Source: Bacteroidaceae bacterium (GTDB taxonomy: Bacteria > Bacteroidota > Bacteroidia > Bacteroidales > Bacteroidaceae). From it: a stretch of DNA of 46,405 nucleotides. The notes beneath the pieces were generated by a model. It worked only from the letters and a program-made list of their open reading frames with translations. It was not told the origin of the DNA and ran no database searches. The translations under genes were made by a program, and so were the position numbers. This document shows, in pieces, positions 12,481 to 40,341 of this stretch; position 1 is the first letter of the stretch; every line of letters begins with the position of its first letter. The stretch spans positions 1-46,405 of the forward strand of contig JAFXVN010000064.1 in NCBI GenBank assembly GCA_017524545.1. Reading direction: 5' to 3'.

Positions 12481-14634
12481 ATGAACAACAACTGCAACGG
12501 GCGCCTCATGCTTCTCGATAAGATAACGTGGGACAGGAGTGACTGGCCAGTCATCAACGACGGACACCCCAGTAGCGATGAAATGGATGCACCCGTCTTC
12601 TACACAGGCAACAAAGCCAACGTGACCTACAAGGTTGTCAATCCCGACCTGATGAAGAGCGGATGGAAAGGCTGGGATGTCACCGCCAGCGAAGACTGCG
12701 ACAACGCAAGCGGAAAGGGTACAGCCTTCATGCCTTTTGGCTATGCAAAGTTCGGCGGCACGTTCGACATCTCGCAGACCGTCACCACCAGCGTGCAGGA
12801 CGGACTCTACGAGATGAAGGTGAACGGCTTCGACACGGAGCACAGCGTCGAGTACTATGTCGGGAAGGTGGCAACGCCTGTCCTCTGCCCTGCAGACAAC
12901 AACACGACCGCCCCCACCTCCGATGCCGTCGTCTCCAATAACTTCCTCAACGGCAAATTCATCCAGAGCGTCTATGGTCTCGTCATTGGCGGCAAACTGA
13001 CCTTCGGTATGCGCACCAAGCAGCCGCTTTCTTCCACCGAGCGTTTTTGCGTGGGCAACGTCAATATCATCTATCGCGACAAACTCGCTAATGCCGATTC
13101 GACGGCTTTGGCTTCCGTGCTGAACAGCTATTATGCAATGGCAGACAGTTTTGCCAATGGCAGTGAGCCTTATTACAGCGGCTTCGACAGGACAATGGCC
13201 TTCTACAGGGAGACGGCCGAAGGTACGGAAGATGCCCAGACCCGCTACCAGCAGTTGCTGAAGATTAACCGCACCATCGACAGCATCCAAACCAGCATAG
13301 ACGCCTATGCCAAGCTGGTGCTTGAGGTGAAGACACTGCAAGACAAAATCGCTGTTGCCGAGGCTGGCGGGTATAGCACTCAGGAGGCAAAGGACGCTCT
13401 GGCTGAGGGTCAGCAGGTGCTTGCCGACCGCAGTCTCAAGGACAGGGATCTGAATGCCCTCATTACTCGTCTGCAGACAGCAGGCCGCAACATGATGTAC
13501 GCCTACCAGACGGGCGACGGTACCAAGGATAACCCCTACGTCATTCTCCGTCCGGAGCAGCTCGACCACATGCACGACGTCCTCAAACAGGACGAGATGG
13601 TCTATTTCGTGCTTGAAGCGGATGTGGATATGGAGGGCTATGACTGGAAGCAGCTCAACACCAGCGAGAACAGCTACCGCTACTGGATAAACTTCGACGG
13701 CAAGGGACACATCATCCGCAACCTCACGCCCAACGGCGCGAAGTACTATCCCAGCTTCTTCGGCACCATGTGCGGTGAGATTCGCAACACCGGCTTTGTG
13801 GATGCAAAGGTGGATGCGGCAGCCTCCGGCGCAGCCATAATCGGCGGTACACTCGGCCACAGCACCTTCAAAGATGCCGAAGGCAACCTCCTGCCAGTCA
13901 TCATCGAGAACTGCTACATGACCGGCACTATCACCAGCAAAGGCTATGTGGGGGCAATTGGCGGCACGCTTGGCAATTCGCCTATCACTATCCGCAACTG
14001 CTACAGTGCTGTTTCCATCACAGGCAATGGCTCGTCTGCCAACTATTCGGGCGGCCTCGTGGGGCGCGTCCGCACAGACCTTACCATCGAGAACTGCTAT
14101 GCAGCCGCTTCTGTCGTTTCGCCTATTGCAGGCGGCATTGTGGCAGGCGGCCAGAACTCTTCGACACCTGGCTGCATCTACAACAATGTCATTGCATGGA
14201 ACCCCAGCGTGGATGGCACAACAGCGGCTCCCTTCGGCACCACAACCGAACTGGATGTCCTCTCCCACACCTATACCTTCGCAGACATGTTGCTGAACGG
14301 AGAGCCTGTTAGCGACGGCAAGAGCCATACGGAGCTTTGCGAAATTGCAGGCAAATGGGGCGCTCCTTGGTACAAAGACCCGACAGCAGGCAACGGTTAT
14401 CCCATCCTTCAGTGGCAGTTCGAGCGCGGCGATTTCCGCGAACTGTGTGGCTTCAGCATCGACGACGACCCGACGGGAATAGCTTCTCCTAAATCCTTCT
14501 CTGAAGGGAAGAATTTTAATTCACCCCTCTTTTTAGAGGGGATGGGCGAGGCTTTCAACCTCTCTGGCCAGCGCCTGCAGAAGTTGCAGAAGGGCATTAA
14601 CATTGTTGATGGCAGGAAAATCGTTGTCAAATAA
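12481..14634 (+). CDS. C-terminal part of the frameshifted GH43 protein, with GLUG-like repeats and sorting tail
   Basis: The 717 residues (the frame is open from about 12437) finish the GH43 propeller (NGRLMLLDKITW). A beta-rich module follows (about 40-200), then a helical coiled-coil-like segment (LQDKIAVAEAGGYSTQEAKD region, about 280-335). Next is a block with GLUG-like repeats (GAIGGTLGNSPITIRNCY, GGLVGRVRTDLTIENCY). The C-terminal tail NLSGQRLQKL...GINIVDGRKIVVK matches the tails on GH38, GH127 and BspA here, probably a secretion or anchoring tag. Just before the tail lies a double-hairpin repeat (14483-14552). The ATG at 12481 is only the first Met in this frame, not a natural start. 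Confidence 0.8.
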   Translation: MNNNCNGRLMLLDKITWDRSDWPVINDGHPSSDEMDAPVFYTGNKANVTYKVVNPDLMKSGWKGWDVTASEDCDNASGKGTAFMPFGYAKFGGTFDISQTVTTSVQDGLYEMKVNGFDTEHSVEYYVGKVATPVLCPADNNTTAPTSDAVVSNNFLNGKFIQSVYGLVIGGKLTFGMRTKQPLSSTERFCVGNVNIIYRDKLANADSTALASVLNSYYAMADSFANGSEPYYSGFDRTMAFYRETAEGTEDAQTRYQQLLKINRTIDSIQTSIDAYAKLVLEVKTLQDKIAVAEAGGYSTQEAKDALAEGQQVLADRSLKDRDLNALITRLQTAGRNMMYAYQTGDGTKDNPYVILRPEQLDHMHDVLKQDEMVYFVLEADVDMEGYDWKQLNTSENSYRYWINFDGKGHIIRNLTPNGAKYYPSFFGTMCGEIRNTGFVDAKVDAAASGAAIIGGTLGHSTFKDAEGNLLPVIIENCYMTGTITSKGYVGAIGGTLGNSPITIRNCYSAVSITGNGSSANYSGGLVGRVRTDLTIENCYAAASVVSPIAGGIVAGGQNSSTPGCIYNNVIAWNPSVDGTTAAPFGTTTELDVLSHTYTFADMLLNGEPVSDGKSHTELCEIAGKWGAPWYKDPTAGNGYPILQWQFERGDFRELCGFSIDDDPTGIASPKSFSEGKNFNSPLFLEGMGEAFNLSGQRLQKLQKGINIVDGRKIVVK
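14483..14552. repeat. GC-rich double-hairpin element in GH43 3' part
   Basis: Hairpins CCTTC-TCT-GAAGG (14495-14507) and CCCCTCT-TTTT-AGAGGGG (14524-14541). Translated as SPKSFSEGKNFNSPLFLEGM, similar in style to the SPLKGE...SPFKGDLEG peptides of the other copies. The outer inverted repeat is weak here. Confidence 0.6.
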
Positions 14635-14655
14635 TAATAAAAAGGAGGAAACATT

Positions 14656-15468
14656 ATGAGACACCAGATTCTTTTTCTAATCCTGCTCTGCACCGCACAT
14701 GCCTGGGCACAGCAGCAAAATGTCAGCGGCATCGTCAAGGGTCCCGACGGTGGCATTGCCAATGTCTCTGTCCGCGAGATTGATTCGAACCGCCGTTTCT
14801 TCAATCACACAAGGACAGACGGGAACGGACTCTTCTCCTTCCATGTGCGCGACGCACAGCATTCCCTGCAATTCTATGCCCCAGGCTATCGTACCATTTC
14901 GCATAAGATGCTTGGTGAGAAAAAGTTCAACGTCACAATGGAAAAGTGCCGCACTTCGCCGTATGTCGCTACCGCCAAGGTCATTCTCAGGAGCGACAGG
15001 CTGTTCAACGGCCATTATCTTGGAAATGTCGTAAATCAGCCGGCTTGGATAGAGAAGATGTGCGACACGCTCTATTCTATCATCCTTCCTATCCAGATGG
15101 AGCGGCTTGTGGATGAATATCCGGCAGGCCGGCAGCTTATCATCCTCGACGAGTATGGCCGGCAGGTGACGCAGTGCGAGAATGTGATTGACGTCTATCC
15201 CCTCAGTGAAGACCCGGACAAGCTGGACACATACTGTGTGTCGCAGTCCTATACAGGCACCGACCGCATCCCCGGCGGCGCGGACGACGAGACAAAGCTC
15301 TATGCCTATCCTCACTTCCAAATCTCCCGCGCCCAGCTCGAGCAGTTCTGTGAAAAGCCCGAACTGCTTGGCCGCCTTGCCGTCGATACCTATCGCGCCA
15401 ACAACTACTGGAACTTCTTCCCGACACCCAAGACCATCGGACTCATCAAAAAGGCTTTGGCAAAATAA
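14656..15468 (+). CDS. Secreted protein with carboxypeptidase-regulatory-like domain
   Basis: The 270-residue protein has a signal peptide (MRHQILFLILLCTAHAWAQ). A CarboxypepD_reg-like beta-sandwich covers about 22-98 (SGIVKGPDGGIANVSVREID, then FSFHVRDAQHSLQFYAPGY), of the kind that begins TonB-linked and carbohydrate-binding proteins. The remaining 170 residues (several Cys, ending TPKTIGLIKKALAK) are not recognised. There is no beta-barrel, so it is not a SusC. It sits 21 bp after the GH43 gene and 33 bp before GH38 in the same direction, probably one operon. Confidence 0.6.
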   Translation: MRHQILFLILLCTAHAWAQQQNVSGIVKGPDGGIANVSVREIDSNRRFFNHTRTDGNGLFSFHVRDAQHSLQFYAPGYRTISHKMLGEKKFNVTMEKCRTSPYVATAKVILRSDRLFNGHYLGNVVNQPAWIEKMCDTLYSIILPIQMERLVDEYPAGRQLIILDEYGRQVTQCENVIDVYPLSEDPDKLDTYCVSQSYTGTDRIPGGADDETKLYAYPHFQISRAQLEQFCEKPELLGRLAVDTYRANNYWNFFPTPKTIGLIKKALAK

Positions 15469-15501
15469 TACGGACTCCCACAAGGGAGAAAACTGTGAAA
15501 T

Positions 15502-19347: not shown

Positions 19348-19370
19348 CCTTAATAAATAACTTTAATACT

Positions 19371-20341: not shown

Positions 20342-20351
20342 GTGATGTTGT

Positions 20352-23072
20352 TTATTTGAAACTTAGATACTTCTTTCCTCCCTGAATGTAGATTGAACCT
20401 TGCGGAGTCGTTGGATGTTGGCCGTTGGGCATCGGCCATTTGCGGCCAAGTGTGTCATAGACAGACTTCCCCTTCGCAGGAGAGTTGAAGGGAGGCTGAA
20501 TGATTCCTATGGGGTCTTCGCCCTCTTCGACTCGTTCGATGCGGAAGTGATCAACCTTGAACCAGCCTGTGGCTTCGCTGCTTGAGGCTTGTGTGCCGTC
20601 GGGCTTCAGGCAGCTGGTGCGGATGCCGAGGCTGAGGCTCTCGCCTTCCTTGACATCCACCGTCACTTCCATCTCTTCCAGTATGAAGGAGGAAGAGCTC
20701 TTGCTGTGATGCCCTGCGAAGGTGGCTGTCTCGCCCTCTGTCAGGTTCCCCGCATAGTCACTCTCTTTGCCGAAGTACTGGACGTTGCTGTTAGCAAAGA
20801 GCCGACAGGTGCCGAGTTGCCCGTCCTGACACCAAAGGAGGCAGCGGACACGGTAGGTTCCGGGCGTGAGCTTCGAGGCGGGAACGGTTTGATAGAGCTG
20901 GAAGTCGAGCGGGAAGGGCAGCGTCCTGTACCAGCAGACATTCTCGCCATAATGGTTCATGGCATCGTGGTTGATGCCGTAGCTGTTGCCGTTCAGTGTC
21001 CCCTGCACGCTCCATCCATAGGGGCGGTAGCTTTTCTTCTCTATGCCGCCGTGATTGACCTGTGTGGCCGAGGTGAGTTCAAAGTCGGGATTGATAAGCA
21101 GAGAGTCGGTGAGCGTCTTCTTCCCTTTGCGCAAAGCATCTGGGAAAACGGTGACGCGCAGCTTGGCAGCACCGTAAGGCACAAGCTTGATGCTGCGCTG
21201 GCTGCCGCTAAAGACGATGTACTCCGATGCCGGCAGGACAGGATTGTAGCGGTTGTTTTCTAATGTCCAAGTGATGGGGCGGACGGGGAGCGTCACGCTG
21301 AGGGGCGTGCCGTCGAGGTCGAAGGGATAGGCGTTCTGGAGCTTCTCCTGGTCTGTGTCGAGCGTCAGCGTCTCGGCATCTGTGTTGAGGGCGTAGTTGA
21401 AGGCTCCGCCCGGTGTCATGCTCCAGCACTTGAAGCCGTCGCCAGGCACCTTGCCGTTCATGTTGCTATATTCGTTTGTGTCCTCGGAGACTTTGGCGGG
21501 CACAGGATAGGTCATAAGCAGCGGACCGCACTCCACATATTTCCCCTGTCCTCTTGCTGCCTCCACGACTGTCGGTGTCATGGTGAGCGAGAGCGTCACC
21601 ACATCGCCATCGTTCCAGTCGCGTTCCAAAGTGACGAAAGAAGACCCCTCTAAATCTCCCCTTAAAGGGGAGACTTCCTGTTCCTCTCCACTTGATGGAG
21701 AGATGGAGAGGGTCCCTTCTTTGCACCAGCCGGGGATGCGGAAGACAAAAGGAAAGTGTGTCGTCTCGGGCAGGGAGAAGCGGAAAGTAATCTCCCCGCT
21801 GAAGGGGTAGTACGTCTCCTCTGTGATGTGGCACTGCGTTTCGCCCACCTTGAAGTCAATCTCGCTGGGCGCGTACATTGCCGCCACGATGGCTTCGTCC
21901 TTGCCGCGCATCCAGAGGCGCGAGGCGAAGTTGGGCATCATGCGGTGCATGTTGCCGGCACAGCACTCCGTCTCGTGCGTGGGGCGGTAGGCCATCCATG
22001 TCGAGCCGCGCTTGAACTTGTTGTTGTCGGAGTTGCCCGTGCAGATGACCTGGTTGACGGACGAGAAGTACTGCACGGCATCGAAGTTGGCAGTGACGGC
22101 TCCCGGTGCGGCGTTGAAGATGGCACGCTCGATGCGGTCGGCCCATTCGGCCTCGCCTGTGACGGTGAGGAAGTAGCCGAGCGACCAGGTATAGTCGGTG
22201 ATGTCGCAGGTCTCGTGGGCGATGTCAATGTCCTGCCCCAGCGTGTATTCCGCGCTGCTTGGCACACCGTCGGGCAGCAAATGGTCGCGCTCCATCTTCC
22301 GTTCTGCATTCATGGCGATGCGCAGGTACTCCTCGTTGCCTGTATAGGCGTAGAGGAGCAAGGGAACTTTGAGCATTTCGCAATAGGTGACGCCGTGCAG
22401 GTGGATGAACTCTTCGCTGCCGGCATCGGTGGCATCGAATTCGAAGCCGCCTGTCTTGTAAGCAGTCTCGGCCTTCGTCAGGAGGCTTTTCGTGCCAGTC
22501 TCTCCATAGAGCCAGAGCAAACCTTCGAGGTTGAGGATGTGGCGGCGGCCGTTGGTCAGGTCGGTGTTGGTCATCGTGTTGTAATTCCTGCGCAGAGCCG
22601 TCTTGAGCGTTGACGGATTGCCGTGCGCGTCGGAGTATGCTTTCATGGCCCGCCAGAAGACGGCCTGCGGCCAGAGGCTGCTGATGACCGACGAGCCGAG
22701 CCGACCGTTCGACTGCGGATGGGCTATTGTATATTTGATGCCATCTTCGCCTTTCTTGATGAGTTCCTCGTCATTGAGGAGATAACCCAGACGGAGCAGT
22801 CCGTCGGTGTAGTAGGCCGTCTGCTCATAGCGCCACCAGTCCTGCCCGTAGTCGCCGTTGCGCGGTATCTCGCCCGCCCACAGGCAAGTGTTGTAGGGAT
22901 AGGAAAGGGCTTCGGGATGTCCTGTCAGTCCACTCTTCTGCCGCTGCAGAAACTCCAGCAGCCAGCCCTTTGGCGTGATGTCTGCAATAAGACCCTCCTG
23001 AAAAACAAACTCTGCTCCCTGGCTTGCAAAGCAAACCATGAGTGCCGCCAATAGCATGTATGCTCTTCTCAT
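20352..23072 (-). CDS. GH127 (DUF1680) beta-L-arabinofuranosidase-like protein
   Basis: From ATG 23072 the protein has about 906 residues with a signal peptide (MRRAYMLLAALMVCFASQGA). The (alpha/alpha)6-barrel domain has the family start LxxxWLLEFLQRQKSGLTGH and LTNGRRHILNLEGLLWLYG. The catalytic zinc/Cys signatures ETCD (about 285) and ETECCAGN (about 366) are both present. Two beta-sandwich modules and the tail YDTLGRKW...GSIYIQGGKKYLSFK follow. GH127 enzymes cleave beta-L-arabinofuranosides from plant hydroxyproline-rich glycans; other activities exist in DUF1680. A double-hairpin repeat is translated in frame near residues 453-477. The ATG at 23120 lies downstream of the promoter too, but 23072 gives the better signal peptide. 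Confidence 0.87.
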   Translation of the reverse strand: MRRAYMLLAALMVCFASQGAEFVFQEGLIADITPKGWLLEFLQRQKSGLTGHPEALSYPYNTCLWAGEIPRNGDYGQDWWRYEQTAYYTDGLLRLGYLLNDEELIKKGEDGIKYTIAHPQSNGRLGSSVISSLWPQAVFWRAMKAYSDAHGNPSTLKTALRRNYNTMTNTDLTNGRRHILNLEGLLWLYGETGTKSLLTKAETAYKTGGFEFDATDAGSEEFIHLHGVTYCEMLKVPLLLYAYTGNEEYLRIAMNAERKMERDHLLPDGVPSSAEYTLGQDIDIAHETCDITDYTWSLGYFLTVTGEAEWADRIERAIFNAAPGAVTANFDAVQYFSSVNQVICTGNSDNNKFKRGSTWMAYRPTHETECCAGNMHRMMPNFASRLWMRGKDEAIVAAMYAPSEIDFKVGETQCHITEETYYPFSGEITFRFSLPETTHFPFVFRIPGWCKEGTLSISPSSGEEQEVSPLRGDLEGSSFVTLERDWNDGDVVTLSLTMTPTVVEAARGQGKYVECGPLLMTYPVPAKVSEDTNEYSNMNGKVPGDGFKCWSMTPGGAFNYALNTDAETLTLDTDQEKLQNAYPFDLDGTPLSVTLPVRPITWTLENNRYNPVLPASEYIVFSGSQRSIKLVPYGAAKLRVTVFPDALRKGKKTLTDSLLINPDFELTSATQVNHGGIEKKSYRPYGWSVQGTLNGNSYGINHDAMNHYGENVCWYRTLPFPLDFQLYQTVPASKLTPGTYRVRCLLWCQDGQLGTCRLFANSNVQYFGKESDYAGNLTEGETATFAGHHSKSSSSFILEEMEVTVDVKEGESLSLGIRTSCLKPDGTQASSSEATGWFKVDHFRIERVEEGEDPIGIIQPPFNSPAKGKSVYDTLGRKWPMPNGQHPTTPQGSIYIQGGKKYLSFK
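21642..21715. repeat. Double-hairpin element inside the GH127 gene
   Basis: Outer arms AGACCCCTCT (21642-21651) and AGAGGGTC (21707-21714). Inner hairpins TCTCCCCTTAAAGGGGAGA (21655-21673) and CTCTCCA-CTTGA-TGGAGAG (21684-21702). Translated on the minus strand as SPSSGEEQEVSPLRGDLEGS. Confidence 0.85.
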
Positions 23073-23099
23073 AACTAACCAGATGTTTCTTTTTGCCTG

Positions 23100-23107
23100 C
23101 AAAGTTA
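23100..23107 (-). promoter_or_regulatory. -7 box for GH127 gene
   Basis: TAACTTTG on the minus strand, with TTGA at the -33 position (23127-23130), 19 bp apart. Confidence 0.6.
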
Positions 23108-23211
23108 CAAAGAAATGCATAATGAATCAAGCTATTGGGTTAAATAAATAGTAACTTTTTGGCAATTCAAACTCCAATGGTCAGGCAAAAGGAGAAAAGT
23201 GCGTGATTTAT

Positions 23212-23242
23212 TTGGCAGAACAGAGAAATAACAGTACCTTTG
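23212..23242 (+). promoter_or_regulatory. Promoter for the FISUMP-type lipoprotein
   Basis: TTGG (23212-23215), 19 bp, TACCTTTG (23235-23242). Confidence 0.75.
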
Positions 23243-29008: not shown

Positions 29009-31825
29009 TCAGGAGTGAGCCTTGCCGCACAGCTGCCCCAGCTTACAGTAGCTGCATGTTTGCGGGTCTGTGGTGCAGGTAAAGGGCTTGTTGGGGTCGA
29101 AAATGTCGTTGAGGATTTCCTGCAGGCTTTCTCGGAAGGTTGCGGCTTGTTGGTTTGCGAAGTCGTTCACGACTTCTTTGTTAATCACGATTGAGGGGTT
29201 GTAGTCGTCTGCCGCCGCCTTAATCGGGAAGAAGAGTACAGGCTGGATGGGCAACGTCGATTCTCCTTTTTCCATTTCAGCCAAAGCATAGAGGAATATC
29301 TGCAGCTGGTAGCGAGGGGATTCGTGTGTTCCTGTCTTGTAATCGACGATGCGCAGCCGTCCGTCCATCTCGTCTATGCGGTCAATGCGTCCGCCGACTT
29401 TGACAGACCCACCCCAGCCCTCCCTTAAAGGGAGGGAGATTGTTCGCTCCTCTTCTGCACCGATGATGCGGAAGGGCGCATGGCGTGCGTCGTAGCGGAT
29501 GAGTGCCTGAAGGTATCGAAGCAGGACATCGTGGGCGATGAGGGTGGTGCCTTTGTAAGCAGACCCCTTTTGAATTGCCATATTGAAACGCCGTCTTATT
29601 TCAGGCAGGCGGTCGAACTCATCTGTTGGGTGGAACCAGCAGACATCGAAGACGGTATGCAGCATCCGTTGCAGTTCTCGATGGATAGACTCTTTGATGA
29701 CGAACTTGTCTTCTCCTTTCTCTTCGCAGAGCATGTTGGCAGTGATGCAGTTCGTGCCGTAGCGTTCCTGCAACCACTCGTAGAAGAACTCGGCGGTGTC
29801 GTGGAAGATGTTGCCGATGATGTCGGCAGAGATGCCTTCCTCTGCATCGTCCTCACGGCGGATGCGCAGCACATTATTTATATAGAACTGCATGGGGCAC
29901 GCCTTGTAGGTGTTGATGGCCGAGGGGCTGAGCGTGATGTGTTCGCCATCGGGCAGGCTCTGGTCGTAGCGTAGGCGCAGGCGTTCCATCACTTCTGCTG
30001 TCTTCTCGACCACAAGAGGTGGCGTGGCTTTCAGTTCGGGTTCGCTCCTCAGCCAGCGTGTTTTGATGGGAATGTCTGTTTCGGCAAGCATTTGGCGCAG
30101 GAAGCGCGACATTTCGTGCTGCACGCCGTCGTTCGTGCTCTCGTTATAGACACAGGTCAGATGCTCGCAGCGTTGCACAAGTCGGTAGAAATAGTAGGCA
30201 TAGACGGCGATGCGGTGCCTTTGCGTCGTCAAGCCAAATGCTTCTCGCAGGCTTTCGGGGATGAACGAGTTAGCGTGAGTGCTTCGCGGCAGATTGCCTT
30301 CCTCGACGGAGAGCAGGAGAAGATTCTCGAAGTCCAGACAACGTGTCTCCAGCATTCCCATCACTTGCAGCCCTCGGTCGGGTTCGCTGTGGAAGGGTAT
30401 CTTGGTGCTCGCCATCATTTGGCGAAAGAGACGGAGCAAAAGAGACCTACCCCTGCCCTCCCTTAAAGGGAGGGAGTTAGAGAGGGTCTTTATCATCCTG
30501 TCGCAGCGGAAGACGGTCTCGCTGTAGAGTTGCTCGAAGATGTTCGGCTCTTCTATCTGTGCATAGTGAAGGGCAATCTGCCGGAGGAGGGTGAGCAGCC
30601 AGTCGAGCAACTCTGCTGTGTTGTTGCCATGATAGACGAGGCATTCCTCTTCCTTGAGCAGTTCAAAGAGCGGCTGCCTGCGCAAAGTCTGCACGAAGGG
30701 ATAGCGGAAACGCTTGCGGTCGGCATCGTAGCCCTCCATCTGCAGTTTCAGCAGCGACATGATGATGCCATAGACAGGCGTGTCGGCAATGGGGAACCCC
30801 ATTGTGACATTGACTTCAGAAGCCGATTCGGGAATGGCATGAAGGACGGGCTGCATCAAGGCTTCGTTGCAGAGGACGATGGCCTTCCCCGTCCAAGTGC
30901 TTACATATCTCGCCGCTGCATTGTCTGTCGTGCAGGCGATGAAGGTCACGTCTCGGAGGTGGCGGAAGTTGTCGAAGGCTTCCTCTTCGTTGATGGCACA
31001 GGGGAAGTCGCGCAGGTTCAGCTTCATGAAGTAGCCAGCCTCGCAGTCGTCGTTCTCAGGGTTGCAGTAGTAGATGTCGTAGTCCCAGTAGAAGCGTGCC
31101 TTGCCCTCGCGCTGGATGAGGCTCATTATCGTGTGCTCCACATTGTTCAACACGTTGAAGCCCGCAAAGACGACGGCTCTCTTTCCCTCTAAAAGCTTCA
31201 GCACGAGGCTCTCGTCTGCCTGCATCTGTTCCGTGACGTGGCGGAAGAGTGCACCTTCCCAAAGTTTGCCTTCGGCAAGGAGCCGTTCGTGCAGTTTCGT
31301 GTATATCTCGTACATGTGGCTCCATGTGTGGAGAAACTTCTCTTGGAGGCGCGTGCTGTTTTCTAAGGAGAAGCGTCCGAAGAAGCGTTGCAGCGTCTCG
31401 CGCTGGGAGTTGTCGAGGTAATCGAGGCTTTTGAGTCGCTCTTGGTCGGCAATGTTGGTGAAGATGGCGCGAGCGTCGGCAAGATGCTTGTCTATGTCGT
31501 CGAAGTCTGCCATCAGCACTTCGCCCCAGCTCCAGAACTCGTCGAGCGTTTCGGTGTAGTCCTTTCCGAGCACTTCCTGCATGACACTATGAAGCTGGCA
31601 GATGCACTCCAACTGGTCGGCCACCTCGATTGAAGTGAGGCTCTGGAAGAGGTCGCCCATCGTGCAGTACTGAGGCACCCATGCAGGCTCTTTGCTCAGG
31701 ATGGCAAACTCGCGGCTCAGGAACATACCCGCTCGTTTGCCGGGAAAGACAACAACGACATCGCGCATGTCGTTCGTAAAATGGGCCAGCATGTCGGCTG
31801 CTATGATATTGAGAAAGCTTTTCAC
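29009..31825 (-). CDS. addB: AddB-like nuclease / inactivated-helicase subunit
   Basis: The 938-residue protein has a helicase-like N-terminal region (VVVFPGKRAGMFLSRE, SLYVAG-type region VVFAGFNVLNNVE). A C-terminal PD-(D/E)XK nuclease follows (GGRIDRIDE, then LRIVDYKTG about 823-831 and the Q-helix YQLQIFLYAL). One Cys at YKACPMQFY plus a terminal C-x5-C-x2-C-x5-C (CTTDPQTCSYCKLGQLC) form the AddB/Cas4-type iron-sulfur site. It should work with the AddA-like protein upstream in double-strand-break end resection. Two GC-rich repeat peptides are inserted: SLPLREGRGRS (near 446-461) and SLPLREGWGGS (near 795-806), the latter directly before the nuclease motif GGRIDRID. It starts 4 bp after the AddA stop, in a 7-bp-unit repeat. 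Confidence 0.85.
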   Translation of the reverse strand: MKSFLNIIAADMLAHFTNDMRDVVVVFPGKRAGMFLSREFAILSKEPAWVPQYCTMGDLFQSLTSIEVADQLECICQLHSVMQEVLGKDYTETLDEFWSWGEVLMADFDDIDKHLADARAIFTNIADQERLKSLDYLDNSQRETLQRFFGRFSLENSTRLQEKFLHTWSHMYEIYTKLHERLLAEGKLWEGALFRHVTEQMQADESLVLKLLEGKRAVVFAGFNVLNNVEHTIMSLIQREGKARFYWDYDIYYCNPENDDCEAGYFMKLNLRDFPCAINEEEAFDNFRHLRDVTFIACTTDNAAARYVSTWTGKAIVLCNEALMQPVLHAIPESASEVNVTMGFPIADTPVYGIIMSLLKLQMEGYDADRKRFRYPFVQTLRRQPLFELLKEEECLVYHGNNTAELLDWLLTLLRQIALHYAQIEEPNIFEQLYSETVFRCDRMIKTLSNSLPLREGRGRSLLLRLFRQMMASTKIPFHSEPDRGLQVMGMLETRCLDFENLLLLSVEEGNLPRSTHANSFIPESLREAFGLTTQRHRIAVYAYYFYRLVQRCEHLTCVYNESTNDGVQHEMSRFLRQMLAETDIPIKTRWLRSEPELKATPPLVVEKTAEVMERLRLRYDQSLPDGEHITLSPSAINTYKACPMQFYINNVLRIRREDDAEEGISADIIGNIFHDTAEFFYEWLQERYGTNCITANMLCEEKGEDKFVIKESIHRELQRMLHTVFDVCWFHPTDEFDRLPEIRRRFNMAIQKGSAYKGTTLIAHDVLLRYLQALIRYDARHAPFRIIGAEEERTISLPLREGWGGSVKVGGRIDRIDEMDGRLRIVDYKTGTHESPRYQLQIFLYALAEMEKGESTLPIQPVLFFPIKAAADDYNPSIVINKEVVNDFANQQAATFRESLQEILNDIFDPNKPFTCTTDPQTCSYCKLGQLCGKAHS
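29405..29440. repeat. Single-hairpin GC-rich element in addB nuclease domain
   Basis: AGACCC (29405-29410) plus hairpin CCCTCCCTTAAAGGGAGGG (29418-29436). Read as SLPLREGWGG on the minus strand. Confidence 0.8.
30443..30489. repeat. Single-hairpin GC-rich element in addB middle
   Basis: Outer AGACC/GGTCT arms (30443-30447, 30485-30489) enclose hairpin CCCTCCCTTAAAGGGAGGG (30456-30474). Confidence 0.85.
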
Positions 31826-31862
31826 TTTTTCACCCTTTCACTTTTTCACTTTTCACTTCCAC
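31824..31862. repeat. 7-bp-unit repeat across the AddA stop / AddB start
   Basis: Minus-strand GTGAAAA-type units give the last AddA residues (VEVKSEKVKG) and run up to the AddB start codon. Confidence 0.75.
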
Positions 31863-33590
31863 TGCCCCTTTCCCCATGATGTACCAGATGTAGCCCTTCA
31901 CGTTGTGCTCGGGGTACATCTTGCGCAGGCAGTCCATATAATTTCCCACTTGCTCTTTGTAGAGCTTGCTGGGGTGGCCGAACTTATAGTCGATAACGGT
32001 AATGTCGTTGCCGTGGATGACGACGCGGTCAGGGCGCAGCACGCACGGCAGCCCGTCGTCGTCGATGCTTGCAATGCCGCACTCGTTATAGACGGTATTC
32101 CCTGCGGAGAACCAAGAGGCCACAAGCGGACTTTGGAAACCTTGCTTGATGCGCTCGGTGATGGCTTGCCAATCGTCGCCTTCGCCGATGACACCTTCCT
32201 CGCGAGCCTTGCGGAGCACTTCTTCGAGCTGGCCGACATCGTTGATGCGGCTGAGGACTTCGTGCATCCGTTTGCCTATCTCGCGCTGAGAGAGATAGCC
32301 CCCTCCCCGCTCCCCCTTTGGGGGAGTGCTTTTGAGCGGCGAGGTATCGACAATGGGGCTCTCCCCCAAAGGGGGAGCGGGGAAGGGGCTTCTTTGAATT
32401 TCATTAAGGTACTCTTCTGCCTGATTGCTTTGCAGGAAGTATAGCATGGGATTCCGTGTGATGACCCTCACGTCGATGGCGTCCTTCTCGCGATGCTCGA
32501 TGCGAAGGCGATTGACAGACCCCTCTAAATCTGCCCTTGAGGGTGAGACTTCATTCCTCGAGTTCTCTCCCTTTAGGGGGGAGTTAGAGGTGGTCAGTGG
32601 TGTTCCCTTTTCAAAGCTGAAGCATTCCTCGTCCGTGTCATTATCATCACTTCGGAGCGAACGATAAATGAGTTCTGCTGCGGTGGTGACGTTTTTGTCC
32701 TTTTCCTTGTCGTAAGGCTTTGTCTTTCCCCATATATAGAGGTTCGCTTTGGCGCGTGTGAAGGCAACGTAGAGTGTGTTGAGGGCATCCACACGCCGCT
32801 CCAGATGTTCCTCTTCGTAGTTCGGCGCAAAGACAGAGCTCCTGACGTCTTTCGAGTAGATGGAGATGGGGAGTGCACCAAGCTCGTTGTACGGAACCTT
32901 GTCGGTTTCGCACCATAGCATTTCGCCTTGTCGGTCTTTCTCTATGTCCCAGTGGCAGAAGGGCAGCAGGACGGTGTGGAACTCCAGCCCCTTCGATTTG
33001 TGGATGGTCAGGATGCGGACGCCAGCGACGGCCGAGCCAGGCACGGAACGCTGGTGCAGCTTTTCGTCCCAAGCTGTGAGGAAGGTTTGAATGTCTGGAA
33101 CTCCGGCACTGCGCAGGTGGTTCTGCAGCTCGTCGAAGAAAGTCAGGACATAGACATCTTCACCCTTGATTTCCCCAAGCGAGAAGATGTACCAAAGCTT
33201 TTCTGCGAGGAGGTAGAGGGGCAGTTGCAGCAGTTCCTCGCGATGTGCTGTGAACTCCTCGGGCAAGACTTCCTCTGCATTCCGAAGGGCAATGTCTTGC
33301 AGGGTGGTGTTTTGTCCGAGAACATCTCTCAGGTAGTGCAGCATGAGGTACTTTTCGGAGATGCCGTCCTTATGGCTCTTGTCAATGAGCAGGCGGAGAG
33401 CTGCCACAATCATCTGCACGCTGGTGGAGGCTTCGAGCAGAAAGGCCTCTTCGCTCACGAGACGGATGTCAGGAGCACATTGGTTGAAACCCTCGATGAT
33501 TTGCTGCGCCATCAGGTTCGTACGGACGAGGATGGCTATCTTGCTGAGGTCGAGGCCGCCTTCCTGCAACAGACGAATCTGCGAAGCCAT
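31830..33590 (-). CDS. addA: AddA-like helicase-nuclease, C-terminal part after a frameshift
   Basis: The 586 residues carry UvrD/AddA C-terminal motifs: IAILVRTNLMAQQII, VRILTIHKSKGLEFHTVLLP (motif V), LYVAFTRAKANLYIWGK (motif VI). A final PD-(D/E)XK nuclease (LRPDRVVIHGNDITVIDYKFG) completes the AddA plan. The N-terminal half is encoded upstream in another frame. Two GC-rich elements are read through: SPFPAPPLGESP...PPKGERGGG (32297-32390) and SPLKGENSRNEVSPSRADLEG (32517-32595). The first Met (MASQIRLLQEGG) is internal to the family, so this ORF is unlikely to be a complete independent gene. Confidence 0.85.
   Translation of the reverse strand: MASQIRLLQEGGLDLSKIAILVRTNLMAQQIIEGFNQCAPDIRLVSEEAFLLEASTSVQMIVAALRLLIDKSHKDGISEKYLMLHYLRDVLGQNTTLQDIALRNAEEVLPEEFTAHREELLQLPLYLLAEKLWYIFSLGEIKGEDVYVLTFFDELQNHLRSAGVPDIQTFLTAWDEKLHQRSVPGSAVAGVRILTIHKSKGLEFHTVLLPFCHWDIEKDRQGEMLWCETDKVPYNELGALPISIYSKDVRSSVFAPNYEEEHLERRVDALNTLYVAFTRAKANLYIWGKTKPYDKEKDKNVTTAAELIYRSLRSDDNDTDEECFSFEKGTPLTTSNSPLKGENSRNEVSPSRADLEGSVNRLRIEHREKDAIDVRVITRNPMLYFLQSNQAEEYLNEIQRSPFPAPPLGESPIVDTSPLKSTPPKGERGGGYLSQREIGKRMHEVLSRINDVGQLEEVLRKAREEGVIGEGDDWQAITERIKQGFQSPLVASWFSAGNTVYNECGIASIDDDGLPCVLRPDRVVIHGNDITVIDYKFGHPSKLYKEQVGNYMDCLRKMYPEHNVKGYIWYIMGKGAVEVKSEKVKG
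32297..32390. repeat. Long inverted double-hairpin element (AGCCCC type) in addA
   Basis: Arms of about 30 nt are almost perfectly complementary. Inner hairpins are CTCCCCCTTTGGGGGAG (32310-32326) and CTCCCCCAAAGGGGGAG (32361-32377). The same subtype occurs at 39206-39311. Confidence 0.9.
32517..32595. repeat. Double-hairpin element (AGACCC type) in addA
   Basis: Outer AGACCCCTCT / AGAGGTGGTC arms with two drifted inner hairpins (around 32534-32546 and 32565-32582). Confidence 0.8.
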
Positions 33591-35242
33591 GTCAAGGAGT
33601 GAAGAGTGAAGAGTGAAGAATCAGAGTTTGTTCCGTCTTCCAAAAGCTTACTATTATTCTTCACTCTTCGTTCTTCACTCTTCACTTTGTAAAGCTTCAC
33701 CCTCACGTACCCCTTCCCGTCTTTCTTCTTTGCTTCCTGCCCGACATCCTCGTAGATGCGGCTCAACTTAATCTCTGCTTCGGGCTTTATCATGTCGAGC
33801 AATGCTGCTGCTCGGGGGAAGAAGTCTTTGGTGAAATCGACGATGATTTGATGGCTGCGATAGTTGATTTTGAGCGGCTCGGAATGGATATGGAAGCGTT
33901 GCAGCTTCTTTTCCCTTTCGATGCCATAGAGAATTTTCCAGTCGCCTCCACGCCAGCGGTAGATGCTCTGCTTGATGTCGCCCACGAGAAGTCCCTTCCC
34001 GCCCGAGGAAAGTTTCTCGAAGAGCAGCTTCTTGAAGTTCTCCCATTGCATCCGGCTTGTGTCCTGAAACTCGTCAATCATCACATAGTTGATGAAGGTG
34101 CCAATCTTCTCGAAGATGAAGGGCGCATCGCTTCCCTCGACCATCTTGCTGAGGAGGGCAGGCGTGGAGCTGAGTGTGAAACGTCCGGCCTCGCCTTCAA
34201 TCTCGCGTGCGCGTTCATCTATATATTCCAGCAGTCGGAGCATCCCGAGGTGGCGGAGGGCAAGCGAGGCGGAGAGATATTCCTTGCGGCGCACTTCGTA
34301 TAAGGCAATAAATTCCGCAAGACGAGCCTGCAAGTCAAACGTGCTTGAATTTTGAATCTTGAATTTTGAATTATAAATGGATTTCCCAGGTCCTTCGCTC
34401 TTCATCGCCTTTGCGTCTGTGAGGAAGTTGAAGAGATTCTTGCCGTAGGTGATTTGGCCGAAGTCCTCAATCTGGCTCATCAGCTCGTCCACGGCATCTT
34501 GCACCTCCTTTTCTGCTTTCTTCCTGATGGCTTGCATCTTGCTCTTGAAGGCCTTGATGACCTCCGCATTGCTGATGCGTTTCAGTTCCGCTTCGCTGCG
34601 CCGCTGGTATTCCTCGCGGAAGATGTTGCCCGCGAAAGCCTTCAGCGGCCCTACGATGTCCCATTTGTCGCCGCTGTCGAGTTGCTCGTGGATGTAATCC
34701 AATACCCATTGCCTCACTTCCGGCCGAGTGTCCATTGTTTCGATGAGGCTGTCCACTGCGCTCGCTATCACCTCGTCGTGCGACAGCTCAACCTGCAGGT
34801 TGGCGGAAAGCCCCAGCTCGCGTGCCATGTTGCGCAGGATGCTTTGGAAGAATGCGTCGATGGTCTCCACACGGAAGTGCGAGTAGTCGTGCAGGATGGC
34901 AGTGAGTGCTTTGCCTGCCTGAAGGCGAAAGACCCCCTCTAACTCCCCCTTAAAGGGGGAGGACTCTCTCCCTTTAAGGGAGGGCTGGGGTGGGTCTGTC
35001 CTTTCCAAAATGGCATCCATGTAGGGGCGTGCCTCTTCCAACCCCATCTTCAGGCCATAGAGTGTCTCGAGGATTCGGCTCTTCATCTCTGCCGTCGCCT
35101 TGTTGGTGAAGGTCACGGCGAGTGTATGCTTAAACTCGTTTTCGGCGTGTGGCTGCATGAGCTGCATGATGTACTCGACGGCCAGCGTAAATGTCTTGCC
35201 CGACCCTGCCGAAGCCTTGTATATGTTGAGAGTCTGTTCCAT
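33536..35242 (-). CDS. addA: AddA-like helicase, N-terminal part ending in a frameshift
   Basis: From ATG 35242 (MEQTLNIYKASAGSGKTFTL) the part has the Walker A motif at residues 10-17. The AVTFTNKATAEMKSRIL motif (about 45-61), the Walker B VMIDEFQDTSRMQWENF and LLVGDIKQSIYRWRGGDW follow: the UvrD/AddA N-terminal plan. The frame runs through a 7-bp-unit element (SEERRVKNN...SSLFTLHSL) and then leaves the family frame at or near 33590. The continuation is in the 31830-33590 ORF. Further inserted peptides are SLKGRESSPFKGELEG (34930-34997) and YNSKFKIQNSS (34344-34376). The upstream in-frame extension to 35425 reads through a 22-bp-unit array and is rejected. TATCTTTG lies 28 bp upstream. Confidence 0.85.
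   Translation of the reverse strand: MEQTLNIYKASAGSGKTFTLAVEYIMQLMQPHAENEFKHTLAVTFTNKATAEMKSRILETLYGLKMGLEEARPYMDAILERTDPPQPSLKGRESSPFKGELEGVFRLQAGKALTAILHDYSHFRVETIDAFFQSILRNMARELGLSANLQVELSHDEVIASAVDSLIETMDTRPEVRQWVLDYIHEQLDSGDKWDIVGPLKAFAGNIFREEYQRRSEAELKRISNAEVIKAFKSKMQAIRKKAEKEVQDAVDELMSQIEDFGQITYGKNLFNFLTDAKAMKSEGPGKSIYNSKFKIQNSSTFDLQARLAEFIALYEVRRKEYLSASLALRHLGMLRLLEYIDERAREIEGEAGRFTLSSTPALLSKMVEGSDAPFIFEKIGTFINYVMIDEFQDTSRMQWENFKKLLFEKLSSGGKGLLVGDIKQSIYRWRGGDWKILYGIEREKKLQRFHIHSEPLKINYRSHQIIVDFTKDFFPRAAALLDMIKPEAEIKLSRIYEDVGQEAKKKDGKGYVRVKLYKVKSEERRVKNNSKLLEDGTNSDSSLFTLHSLTWLRRFVCCRKAASTSAR
33599..33685. repeat. Inverted 7-bp-unit element at the addA frameshift (3 + 4 units)
   Basis: Left arm GTGAAGA x3 (33599-33619), 38-nt spacer, right arm TCTTCAC-type x4 (33658-33685). 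The GH20 copy has 4 + 4 units and is in frame. Confidence 0.85.
34344..34376. repeat. 7-bp-unit repeat (TTCAAAA type) in addA
   Basis: Minus strand reads AATTCAAAATTCAAGATTCA, translated IYNSKFKIQNSS. Same word as at 1239-1272. Confidence 0.8.
34930..34997. repeat. Double-hairpin element (AGACCC type) in addA 5' part
   Basis: Outer AGACCC (34930-34935) and GGGTCT (34992-34997). Inner hairpins CTCCCCCTTAAAGGGGGAG (34943-34961) and CTCCCTTTAAGGGAG (34968-34982). Confidence 0.9.
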
Positions 35243-35269
35243 CCTGCCTATTTCGTGCTTCCAAGTACG

Positions 35270-35277
35270 CAAAGATA
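35270..35277 (-). promoter_or_regulatory. -7 box for addAB
   Basis: TATCTTTG on the minus strand, 28 bp upstream of the AddA start; TTGC at the -33 position. Confidence 0.6.
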
Positions 35278-35351
35278 CGCTTTTCTGTCGAAATCTGCAA
35301 GAGAATAAGGGCAGAATGACTAAACATTCTACGGATTGCTCCTCGGCGGTT

Positions 35352-35417
35352 AAGGTTGTCCCACTGGTGAGACAAGTTTTTCCCACACGTGGGACAACCT
35401 TTTCCCACTGGTGGGAA
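35352..35417. repeat. Three 22-bp units with CCCAC/GTGGG dyads
   Basis: Units at 35352, 35374 and 35396 have cores CCCACTGGTGAG, CCCACACGTGGG and CCCACTGGTGGG. It lies between the divergent addA and panB genes. Confidence 0.85.
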
Positions 35418-35527
35418 AACTCCACGCGACACGCTCTTGTCGAAGCGATGACATTCCCCTTTGGCCGAAAACTAACCTTCCTTGTTAATTTTTGTCGAGC
35501 TTTGCTTCATAGTTCGGAATTATTTTG

Positions 35528-35535
35528 TACCTTTG
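35528..35535 (+). promoter_or_regulatory. -7 box for panB
   Basis: TACCTTTG, 51 bp before the start codon. No clean -33 box at 19 bp. Confidence 0.55.
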
Positions 35536-35585
35536 CACACTCAAAAAACGAAGTTATTGCACAAAGTTAAATAGTAAATTGAGAC

Positions 35586-38131: not shown

Positions 38132-38149
38132 ATTTGTGTGTTTTTCTTG

Positions 38150-38157
38150 CAAAGATA
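38150..38157 (-). promoter_or_regulatory. -7 box for the second PAP2 gene
   Basis: TATCTTTG on the minus strand, 18 bp upstream of the start. Confidence 0.55.
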
Positions 38158-38201
38158 TAAAAAAGATTAAGGATTGAGGGCAGATAATTAAAGCTTTTTT
38201 G

Positions 38202-38209
38202 TACTTTTG
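38202..38209 (+). promoter_or_regulatory. -7 box for the two-propeller GH43-like gene
   Basis: TACTTTTG followed by C, 39 bp before the start. No convincing -33 box. Confidence 0.45.
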
Positions 38210-38248
38210 CAAAATAATGTCAACGATTGAGATAGATAATATCAAATT

Positions 38249-40228
38249 ATGAAACGTCTTCTTTCCCTTGTTTTGCTTTTTGCGGGCTGTGCGATGCTCA
38301 ATCTTCAGTGTACAATGGTTTTCGCCTACGAGTTCATCTATGGCGACGATACCCGAACGGGCACGCTCTTTGCCAAAGACCCGATTGTGGTCTTTCATGG
38401 CGGACGCTACCTTATGTATTATAGCATCCCGCCTCATAATAGTAGGGATTGGGAGGGCTGGAACATCGGCATTGCCGAGAGCAGCGACCTTCGACATTGG
38501 CAGAGAATAGGCGAGATAACGCCCCAGGCCGAGTACGAGGCAAAGGGACTCTGTGCGCCGGGAGCGATTGTCAGGAACGACACCATCCACCTCTTCTACC
38601 AAACCTACGGCGGAGGACGCACCGACGCTATCTGTCATGCTTGGAGCACGGACGGCCTCACCTTCGAGCGCGACAAGACGAACCCTATCTTCCGACCGAC
38701 AGGTGCCTGGAACTGCGGACGAGCCATCGATGCTGAGGTCATTGCCTTCAAGGGAAAATACTTCCTTTACTTTGCCACACGCGACCCGCAGTTCGAGCGC
38801 CAGTTGCTCGGTGTGGCGACAGCACCCATCGGCACAGACTTCCGCCGCAGCGACTGGACGCTTGCCTTGGACGCTCCCATCTTGCAACCCGAACTGCCGT
38901 GGGAAGGCAAGTGCTGCGAGGGTGCGACGGTCATCGAATACAAGAAGAAGCTCTACATGTTCTATGCTGCCGACTACAACAACTGCCCGCAGCAGATTGG
39001 CTTAGCGGTCAGCAAGGATGGCATTCACTGGCAGCGTTGCTCCGACCAGCCTTTCCTTCGTAATGGTCTGCCGGGCGAATGGAACGAGAGCGAGAGTGGA
39101 CATCCCTGCGTCTATTGCGACCAGCAGGGGCAGACGCATCTCTTCTTCCAGGGCAATAACACGCACGGACGGCACTGGCTGCTGACGAGTGTGCCGCTTA
39201 AATGGACAGCCCCCTCCCCGCTCCCCCTTTGGGGGAGTGCCCCATTGCCGCTGGTTGTCTATCCGAAAATAGCACTTCCTCACTCCCCCAAAGGGGGAGA
39301 CGGAGGGGGCTGGAGCGGGGTGAGGCCCGTCATCGACGCCGATGCGCCCGACCCCTCTGTCATCCGCTATGGCGACACCTACTATGCTGCTGCCACGTCG
39401 GGCAACAAGCCACAGGCATATCAGCGTTATCGCTCGAAGGACTTGCTGACGTGGGAACCGATGGGATTCATCTTCGACGAGTGGCCCGAATGGACGTGCG
39501 GCAGCTTTTGGGCACCAGAACTCTTCGACCTCTGCGGCCGCACAATGTGCTACTACACAGCCCGACAAAAGAGCGACAGCACCAGCTGCATCGGTGTGGC
39601 GATGGCAGATGGTCCCGAGGGCAAGTTCAAGGACTACGGCCCCCTCGTTCGCACCACCAACGAAGCCATCGATGCCTTCGTGTTTCGCGACGGCACACAG
39701 CTCTATATCTCGTGGAAAGCCTATGGCCTCGACCCAAGTCATCGTCCCATTGAACTGCTCTGCCAACGCCTCTCGGACGATGGCCTGCATCTTGTGGGCG
39801 AGCCGTTCACACTGCTTCGCGACGATGAGCGGCAGGGGATGGAGGGACAATGCATCTTCCGCCAGGGCGACTGGTGGTATATCCTCTACAGCATCCGCGA
39901 TTGCTGTTCACCCAAGAGCGACTATGCCGTCAGCGTGGCTCGCAGCCATTCTATTCAAGGACCTTGGGAGAAGTACGAGAAAAACCCTATTTTAGAGGGA
40001 AAGACCCCCTCTGACTCCCCCTTAAAGGGGGAGAAAAAGAAGTCTCCCTTTAAGGGAGATTTAGAGGGTCTCCAGAGCTGCGGTCACGGCACAATGGTTC
40101 GCACACCGCAGGGCGACATGTACTACCTCTGCCACGCCTACTACTGGAATCGCTATAAGGAAGGCCGCAAAGCCGTCCTCTTCCGCCTCGACATAGGCGA
40201 AGACGGCTGGGTGCGTAAAATGGATTAG
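38249..40228 (+). CDS. Two-propeller GH43/GH32-superfamily lipoprotein
   Basis: The 659-residue protein has a possible lipobox (LLFAGC, Cys14). It contains two five-bladed-propeller units of the GH43/GH32/GH117 superfamily. The first (about 25-315) has FAKDPIVVFHGGRYLMYYS and RAIDAEVIAF. The second (about 360-655) has VIDADAPDPSVIRYGDTYY, GSFWAPELFDL and IDAFVFRDG. The linker between them is a GC-rich repeat element (39206-39311) and a second element lies near residues 585-607. The closing HGTMVRTPQGDMYYLCHAYYW resembles the GH43 GHG-type ending. The stop codon lies inside a GATTAGA-type repeat. Substrate unknown; probably a plant or host glycan side chain. Confidence 0.78.
   Translation: MKRLLSLVLLFAGCAMLNLQCTMVFAYEFIYGDDTRTGTLFAKDPIVVFHGGRYLMYYSIPPHNSRDWEGWNIGIAESSDLRHWQRIGEITPQAEYEAKGLCAPGAIVRNDTIHLFYQTYGGGRTDAICHAWSTDGLTFERDKTNPIFRPTGAWNCGRAIDAEVIAFKGKYFLYFATRDPQFERQLLGVATAPIGTDFRRSDWTLALDAPILQPELPWEGKCCEGATVIEYKKKLYMFYAADYNNCPQQIGLAVSKDGIHWQRCSDQPFLRNGLPGEWNESESGHPCVYCDQQGQTHLFFQGNNTHGRHWLLTSVPLKWTAPSPLPLWGSAPLPLVVYPKIALPHSPKGGDGGGWSGVRPVIDADAPDPSVIRYGDTYYAAATSGNKPQAYQRYRSKDLLTWEPMGFIFDEWPEWTCGSFWAPELFDLCGRTMCYYTARQKSDSTSCIGVAMADGPEGKFKDYGPLVRTTNEAIDAFVFRDGTQLYISWKAYGLDPSHRPIELLCQRLSDDGLHLVGEPFTLLRDDERQGMEGQCIFRQGDWWYILYSIRDCCSPKSDYAVSVARSHSIQGPWEKYEKNPILEGKTPSDSPLKGEKKKSPFKGDLEGLQSCGHGTMVRTPQGDMYYLCHAYYWNRYKEGRKAVLFRLDIGEDGWVRKMD
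39206..39311. repeat. Double-hairpin element (AGCCCC type) forming an inter-domain linker
   Basis: Outer arms CAGCCCCCTCC (39206-39216) and GGAGGGGGCTG (39301-39311) are an 11-bp perfect inverted repeat. Inner hairpins CTCCCCCTTTGGGGGAG (39220-39236) and CTCCCCCAAAGGGGGAG (39282-39298). Confidence 0.92.
40002..40071. repeat. Double-hairpin element (AGACCC type) in the GH43-like gene
   Basis: Outer AGACCCCCTCT (40002-40012) and AGAGGGTCT (40063-40071). Inner CTCCCCCTTAAAGGGGGAG (40015-40033) and TCTCCCTTTAAGGGAGA (40043-40059). Read as SPLKGEKKKSPFKGDLEG. Confidence 0.92.
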
Positions 40229-40269
40229 AGATTAGGGATTAGAGATTAGAGGTTCGGGATTAGGGAATA
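40223..40269. repeat. GATTAGA-type 7-bp-unit array containing a stop codon
   Basis: About seven GATTAGA/GATTAGG units; the TAG stop of the preceding gene is inside the first unit. Confidence 0.8.
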
Positions 40270-40272
40270 GAC

Positions 40273-40306
40273 AAAGAAAGCCCCCACAGTTGTGGAGGCT
40301 TTCTTT
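40273..40306. terminator. Bidirectional terminator between the GH43-like gene and gdhA
   Basis: A 15-bp stem with one mismatch (40273-40287 with 40292-40306) and AGTT loop, flanked by A-rich and T-rich ends, serves both convergent genes. Confidence 0.85.
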
Positions 40307-40310
40307 CGTT

Positions 40311-40341
40311 CTCCCCATTACGGGGGAGTTAGAGGGGGTCT
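40311..40341. repeat. Half double-hairpin element abutting the gdhA stop
   Basis: Hairpin CTCCCCATTACGGGGGAG (40311-40328) followed by the outer arm AGAGGGGGTCT (40331-40341), ending next to the gdhA stop codon. Confidence 0.75.

Follow-up and report, generated by a model that had tools for sequence, protein, structure and literature searches.

What are the short, hairpin-bearing elements that recur inside genes of contig JAFXVN010000064.1 from a Bacteroidaceae bacterium (GenBank assembly GCA_017524545.1), and what spreads them? A preliminary description of this stretch of 46,405 nt, analysed whole and hereafter called the window, listed ten elements, nine within coding sequences and one intergenic; it regarded them as one family that, like the Rickettsia palindromic elements (RPEs), enters genes in frame, and it expected that a cognate transposase gene, or one like that of RAYT (REP-associated tyrosine transposase; REP, repetitive extragenic palindrome), elsewhere in the genome would support mobility. 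We located all ten at those sites, nine within open host frames and one (40311) between two open reading frames (ORFs). Their outer inverted repeat, hairpins, and SPLKGE and SPFKGDLEG peptides match that description, most clearly in what we call family 1; the ten copies fall into three related families. The window elements are probably non-autonomous members, resembling miniature inverted-repeat transposable elements (MITEs), of a mobile element family that carries a DUF559 nuclease gene and would move through DUF559 cutting and repair. Within this genus, association data and a single deletion series give good support to the derivation of the short elements from a DUF559 nuclease element; that they move by cutting and repair, and that the system extends beyond the genus, is inferred.

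The elements are numerous in this genome. The exact core CCCCCTTAAAGGGGG occurs in 39 copies and a relaxed hairpin, TCCCN(0-2)TTTAAN(0-2)GGGAG, in 166 copies on both strands, and the reversed control gave 0 in each case. As had been pointed out, and as follows from the sequence, two of the three frames through CCCCCTTAAAGGGGG give P-L-K-G and the third hits TAA. A model of a single arm, R1 (hairpin, linker, and GGGTCT end), found at least 154 genomic arms at E ≤ 1, with 150 of 1,582 candidates scored. Of 139 genus genomes, this one included, 49 contain the relaxed hairpin and 90 have none; counts are strongly skewed (166 here, then 126, 101, 87, 69, and 67), and single matches mean little because the reversed control reaches 0 to 3 per genus genome. 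The hairpin is concentrated in one clade of the genus: all 15 element-rich genomes, defined as having at least 30 arms in a capped count, belong to the set of 28 whose AddA-like protein is closest to that of the window (64 to 79% identical in the others). Outside that clade, three genomes (G078, G204, and G242) have 13 to 28 hairpins. Across the family, 2 of 151 genomes contained a longer exact core. When species were scanned with a pattern, one genome each, at least 100 stretches matched, and all those listed come from uncultured Bacteroidales, Prevotellaceae, Bacteroidaceae, or Prevotella; many assemblies among the listed matches carry ruminant-sample names.

The family is thus spread across the genome and its relatives rather than confined to this locus, and in the genomes examined congeners have no insert, or a different one, at the site where the window has its peptide; some element sites are common to several species. 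The idea that the elements are not mobile, and represent ordinary expansion of hypervariable loops, is hardly tenable. Their sites are indeed variable loops, some of them shared by several species, but 166 matches on both strands to a single hairpin pattern whose control gave none, and the 90 genus genomes without a match, already contradict it through copy number and distribution.

We scanned 186 loci with nhmmer (threshold, 16 bits; reversed control maximum, 15.7), most of them chosen for holding an arm or core irrespective of coding, and identified 165 distinct two-armed elements, whose lengths cluster at 68, 70, 74, 80, 89, and 92 nt, and 61 lone arms. Fifteen of the two-armed elements lie near an ORF end and 14 are not coding; the other 136 lie within ORFs 150 or more codons long, with 30 or more amino acids to each side. 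Length modulo 3 was 2 in 108, 1 in 22, and 0 in 6 of these intragenic elements, and 2 in 1, 1 in 10, and 0 in 3 of the non-coding ones. Both strands are open in 142 of 165 elements (shuffles average 99, maximum 110). Comparing orthologous coding sites whose flanks share at least 70% identity, we found that 207 of 209 pairs, which are not independent of one another, differed in net length by a multiple of 3. The view that the family is dispersed and, like RPEs, enters genes in frame is borne out both genome-wide and in relatives. RPEs and other intragenic REPs are short palindromes lying in frame in genes that include those for tRNA synthetases and DNA repair (PMC3733652), and the window family likewise stays in frame and preserves the ORF. 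The likeness is one of behavior rather than of compared sequence: the hosts differ, and here there is a nuclease gene with matching arms. Most REPs are placed between genes (PMC3733652), unlike the 136 of 165 copies that are intragenic here.

That nuclease gene came to light in a widely spaced arm pair on contig C1 of this genome, which encloses a 123-amino-acid ORF matching DUF559 (PF04480; E = 5e-33). Relatives in PDB are 3hrl (E = 4e-15) and 3r3p, a "Mobile intron protein" (E = 0.0025) that we take to be I-Bth0305I; by these similarities DUF559 is predicted to be a Vsr-like nuclease with distant similarity to a homing endonuclease. Among 99 aligned stop-free copies, E29, Q48, D57, E68, G71, H74, D83, and R86 are invariant and D70 is nearly so. 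Family-1 arms accompany each of the two long DUF559 frames in this genome: the C1 copy (R1, 47.8 and 44.7 bits) and a second copy on contig C52, an open frame of 133 codons (47.9 and 42.6 bits). For family 2, 32 nt of the window arm string flank a DUF559 gene in another genome of the genus (G157, L263), and a nuclease-bearing version with matching arms is thus known for two of the three window families.

The association of arms with DUF559 holds in both directions. DUF559 was detected at E ≤ 1e-5 in 98 of 139 genus genomes, and 27 of 31 loci (the 30 best matches plus L174) passed an arm test with an inverted-repeat score threshold of at least 15; hairpin arms were visible by eye in the four that scored 10 to 13, and random placements in 46 other loci reached the threshold in 0 of 400 cases (maximum, 13). 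DUF559 is present in 14 of 15 element-rich genomes (loci for 30 of the 51 matches), where 24 of 25 further loci passed, two of them being the C1 and C52 copies; the sole failure, L269 (11.5), has recognizable arms. Conversely, the 186 loci, with overlapping loci kept, contain 177 facing pairs of neighboring arms: 172 have gaps of less than 200 nt, and the remaining five have gaps of 404 to 413 nt, all five enclosing DUF559. Four of the five (L032, L059, L110, and L111) represent one orthologous site; the fifth, L174, is independent and was selected for its wide arm spacing. Between arms up to 3 kb apart in these loci we found no gene other than DUF559. Two other wide pairs, C79 (795 nt) and C34 (553 nt), were considered as autonomous copies and proved to be neighboring separate elements. 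In 28 of 30 cases, a nuclease and its nearest relative share their arm type, as compared with an average of 5.7 and a maximum of 15 in 1,000 shuffles; arm types were assigned by eye in 32 loci, 30 of them usable, and orthologous copies inflate this figure.

One site, compared across different species, shows how a short element could arise. At a gene junction that is presumably rmlA/rmlB, the full element is present in this genome and in L059, L110, and L111, and L089 has none; L054 has a 155-nt derivative that retains both arms but only 13 codons from the start of the nuclease gene, followed by a stop. It is in such internal deletion of a larger element with inverted ends that the family resembles the MITEs of insertion sequences; it differs from these and from DDE-type MITEs in lacking a target-site duplication and in having DUF559, and no transposase, between its wide arms.

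DUF559 could instead be a frequent passenger or defence gene on palindromic elements moved by something else. DUF559 proteins without detectable arms do exist, a few genomes keep element loads without a detected nuclease, and DUF559 gives weak matches to PADLOC defence models, although the scan with PADLOC and NCBIfam yielded no defence-system assignment for it. We nevertheless consider this unlikely, because in five of five cases what the widely spaced arms enclose is DUF559, because arm type and nuclease type co-segregate, and because the conserved acidic and histidine residues resemble an active site. CGTC-type REP motifs near DUF559 amounted to two or more partial matches in 4 of 45 loci, nothing systematic.

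How the elements enter their sites was examined in the 155 of 165 with exact ends, 117 of which were left once similar flanks had been removed. The preliminary description had proposed comparing orthologues for frame bias and target duplications. No target duplication appeared, direct repeats of 1 to 5 nt across the ends being at chance level at the 117 distinct sites. Left flanks favor A/C and right flanks T/G. The term "inserted" also needs qualifying: the elements are in frame, but where the comparison is cleaner they take the place of a native loop and are not simply added to it. The GH43 protein of the window has 24 amino acids (at 40002..40071) where a relative, L066, has the 8 amino acids EPEGAGSM; a comparison of L136 with the window gives 24 amino acids in place of 9; in leucyl-tRNA synthetase (LeuRS), a 23-amino-acid element peptide replaces 13 amino acids of the orthologue; and 19 of 25 aligned loci of relatives have 35 nt of other sequence in the loop of the element at 34930. 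Among 20 elements with a "clean" orthologue, 18 orthologues were longer between the flanks than an empty site (median, 44 nt extra) and 2 were shorter; several of the 18 bear other repeats, which leaves about seven good cases. Plain insertion without loss of host sequence predicts an extra length near zero in empty orthologues, and we rejected it because 18 of 20 exceed that. There are 31 orthologous site groups with two or more elements, some of them different variants, and partial arms adjoin 23 of 165 elements by a crude pattern that yields at least two by chance, the commonest junction being CTAACTCC|A.

Might replication template switching or host repair, with no dedicated enzyme, account for the spread of these palindromes? 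The missing target duplication and the loss of native sequence would suit such a process, as would partial arms beside elements and the further inverted tandem repeats that these loops contain. It leaves unexplained why DUF559 sits between arms at a near-constant spacing of 404 to 413 nt and why arm types are specific to the nuclease, and we regard it as improbable, somewhat more so than the passenger explanation. As an observation apart, relatives have other repeat families in the same protein loops or in element spacers (L082, L059, L073, L039, and L013); these are AT-rich or GGGGCAAG tandems, some of them inverted.

The elements could also be REPIN-like and mobilized by RAYT proteins, and the genome does contain four RAYT-like genes. 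A RAYT of the C43 type is present in 9 of 15 element-rich genomes of the clade and in 0 of the 13 others, hairpin counts differ between the 9 genomes with it and the 19 without (Mann-Whitney P = 5e-4), and the absence of target duplication suits an HUH enzyme. In all eight other element-rich genomes with the C43-type gene, however, no arm (E ≤ 0.05) lies within the 0.8 to 1.6 kb fetched on either side, and it was these armless surroundings that ruled against RAYT despite its promising presence and absence within the clade. Of the RAYT loci in this genome, L040, L041, and L043 have no arms and L042 has one element about 440 nt upstream; the NCBIfam RAYT scores (32 to 45 bits) fall under the cut-off of 80; the same RAYT is found in eight genomes outside the clade with 0 or 1 hairpins; and it is missing from six element-rich genomes. 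RAYT mobilization is accordingly very unlikely, and the DUF559 nuclease is the likelier enzyme. The elements do resemble REPIN/RAYT systems as described in PMC6006769 and PMC3733652 in having two inverted hairpin units and a spacer (165 paired elements here), in their short non-autonomous copies, and in the presence of these repeats on both sides of an endonuclease gene. Unlike the systems in those accounts, the candidate enzyme here is Vsr-like, of the PD-(D/E)XK type, rather than an HUH tyrosine transposase; the RAYT-like genes of other genomes have no arms; and the elements are mostly intragenic, whereas REPs are mainly extragenic. Separately, RAYT-like proteins in L201 and L207 to L209 contain an in-frame VHGEG-type minisatellite whose copy number varies by genome.

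In the mechanism we favor, a complete DUF559 element would consist of an arm (GACCC-type end, linker, and hairpin), 404 to 413 nt with one DUF559 gene in the copies measured, and an inverted arm; short forms would be two arms with a spacer of less than 200 nt, or one hairpin alone. The nuclease would cut DNA, acting in trans, resection would strip some of the target sequence, and repair would copy the element into the gap, a homing-like process without splicing. An older copy may be cut again at its hairpin and then replaced, which would explain partial arms adjoining new copies as well as different variants at one orthologous site. Selection would retain frame-preserving insertions in tolerant loops, and either orientation may be tolerable because most elements are open on both strands. 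Given the link between arms and DUF559, the deletion series, and a LeuRS loop shared with DUF559 (below), we therefore favor reading the window elements as non-autonomous copies that stem from a nuclease element.

Several points weigh against this reading. Neither movement nor cleavage is among the observations. The association of DUF559 with element load, which speaks for the reading (at least four hairpins or arms in 64 of 98 DUF559-positive genomes versus 6 of 41 DUF559-negative ones; Fisher, 3e-8; Spearman, 0.57), is uncorrected for phylogeny. G163 has 44 hairpins, and G170 and G010 have 34 and 18 second-pattern arms, with no DUF559 match in any of the three, which incomplete assemblies or loss could explain. 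The C52 copy of this genome has no clear in-frame ATG. Since the loops are hypervariable and several of the comparison alleles bear other repeats, replacement rests on the seven or so cleaner cases, and two elements gave the opposite sign in that comparison. Away from the genus, only 13 of the 30 best phylum-wide DUF559 loci had arms that passed the threshold, the two copies in LeuRS score 10 and 8, which is background level for arms, and a reversed-flank control on plasmid loci gave 9 to 15, reaching 15 in two. At the sub-threshold phylum-wide and LeuRS loci, arms are therefore decayed or absent.

DUF559 itself extends well beyond the genus, at E ≤ 1e-10 in 84 of 198 genomes of a phylum-wide sample, and it too lies in frame in host proteins: LeuRS (L277 and L280), MetH between two B12-binding domains (L297 and L303), an epimerase (L274, and L266 by its sequence), HsdR (L281), the N6-methylase HsdM (L291), and guanylate kinase (L235). 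The two LeuRS genomes belong to one family, as do the two MetH genomes, so each pair may reflect one old event. In LeuRS, DUF559 occupies the same alignment column as a 68-nt element of this genome, which encodes the insert peptide KTLSNSPLKGENSLPLR; the loop is short in a relative, L141, and in 1h3n in the alignment. The MetH copies have arm scores of 16 and 10.5. Of 24 DUF559 plasmid records, 15 loci were examined and nine have arms at or above the threshold: four from Deinococcus and one each from Azospirillum lipoferum, Picosynechococcus PCC 7003, Pseudanabaena (with 7 occurrences of its arm on the plasmid), Sphingomonas, and Sinorhizobium. On three Deinococcus plasmids (L306, L307, and L317), DUF559 genes are found at positions in the hpa operon that differ by species, and on Sinorhizobium pSymB (L318) a long, near-identical inverted copy, about 110 nt with hairpins, lies on each side of the DUF559 gene.

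A nuclease gene between cognate inverted arms, accompanied by short derivatives, is the combination that we propose should define a DUF559 hairpin element; it was found in the genus and in part outside it. The elements resemble EDxHD homing endonuclease genes (PMC3943268) in their distant similarity to 3r3p, the absence of target duplication, and the placement of a nuclease within conserved genes; they are unlike them, as described there, in occupying many unrelated sites, in having inverted hairpin arms, and in forming small derivatives, and no intein domain was detected in ten in-frame DUF559 host fusions (Pfam, E ≤ 1e-5). It is an evenly balanced question whether there exists a widespread class of mobile elements, of which we came across no description, in which an arm-flanked, Vsr/EDxHD-like DUF559 gene enters genes in frame without splicing, replaces loops, and sheds derivatives encoding SPLKGE- or SPLPLGEDLGEG-type peptides; arm-flanked DUF559 genes occur in Bacteroidota, Deinococcota, Cyanobacteriota, and Alphaproteobacteria. 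Among literature titles and abstracts, with most subscription journals outside coverage, we found no link of DUF559, COG2852, or PF04480 to palindromic elements; a Caulobacter DUF559 protein has been linked to DNA damage (PMC12907096).

If this reading is right, an in-frame palindrome family gains a candidate enzyme, its mobility can be tested with one small protein, and a common nuclease family whose function is unknown is given a possible role. SPLKGE-type peptides in annotated proteins would then be element footprints rather than native sequence. The wider class, if real, may also be where the missing enzyme of other intragenic palindromes is to be sought, for example that of the CGTC REPs, among them RPE-4 and RPE-6, for which PMC3733652 names no dedicated transposase. 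Conserved proteins are seen to be remodeled in their loops by repeated DNA, as in LeuRS, where one loop holds a short element here and a DUF559 domain in two other Bacteroidota.

Family 1 (AGACCC...GGGTCT) has seven sites in the window, all recovered by R1 at E < 0.01; positions are given without strand except for the two lone arms. The two-armed element at 21642..21715 (42.3 and 22.1 bits; peptide GTLSISPSSGEEQEVSPLRGDLEGS) is in frame in ORF 20352-23120 (minus strand), which has a GH127 domain by Pfam. Two members lie in frame in ORF 29009-31825 (minus strand), a PD-(D/E)XK protein (PF12705) that is AddB-like by inference: a lone arm on the minus strand at 29405..29438 (46.6 bits; peptide ISLPLREGWGGS) and a 47-nt single-hairpin element at 30443..30489 (40.3 bits; peptide KTLSNSLPLREGRGRS). 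An 80-nt two-armed element at 32517..32596 (30.0 and 23.0 bits; peptide LTTSNSPLKGENSRNEVSPSRADLEGS) is in frame in ORF 31830-33590 (minus strand), the C-terminal part of a UvrD/AddA-like protein; its second arm, like that of the element at 21642, is a weak R1 match. A 68-nt two-armed element at 34930..34997 (51.1 and 45.3 bits) is in frame in the N-terminal AddA-like ORF 33536-35425 (minus strand), and a 70-nt one at 40002..40071 (49.2 and 37.5 bits) in the GH43 ORF 38249-40228 (plus strand). The plus-strand lone arm at 40311..40341 (37.3 bits) lies between the GH43 ORF and an ORF of the glutamate dehydrogenase family, as assigned by Pfam.

Family 2 (AGCCCCCTCCCCGCTCCCCC) has two members with E of about 0.06 by R1, both in frame: 32297..32390 in the C-terminal AddA-like ORF, with the arm string AGCCCCCTCCCCGCTCCCCCTTTGGGGGAGTGC at 32297-32329, and 39208..39311 in the GH43 ORF (E = 0.055 and 0.13), where the string recurs at 39208-39240. 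Family 3 (AGCTTC...GAGGCT) was missed by R1; its one decayed member, at 14481..14553, is in frame near the C terminus of ORF 12481-14634 (plus strand) and encodes ASPKSFSEGKNFNSPLFLEGMGEA in the host frame.

An Rfam scan of the window returned nothing but 5S rRNA, a partial gene at positions 1-100 that is truncated at the window start. At 33536-33640 the AddA-like gene is divided into two ORFs that overlap out of frame beside a TTCACTCTTCACTC-type tandem repeat; in close relatives it is mostly one ORF of about 1,070 to 1,150 amino acids, and the split reflects either a frameshift through repeat slippage or an assembly error.

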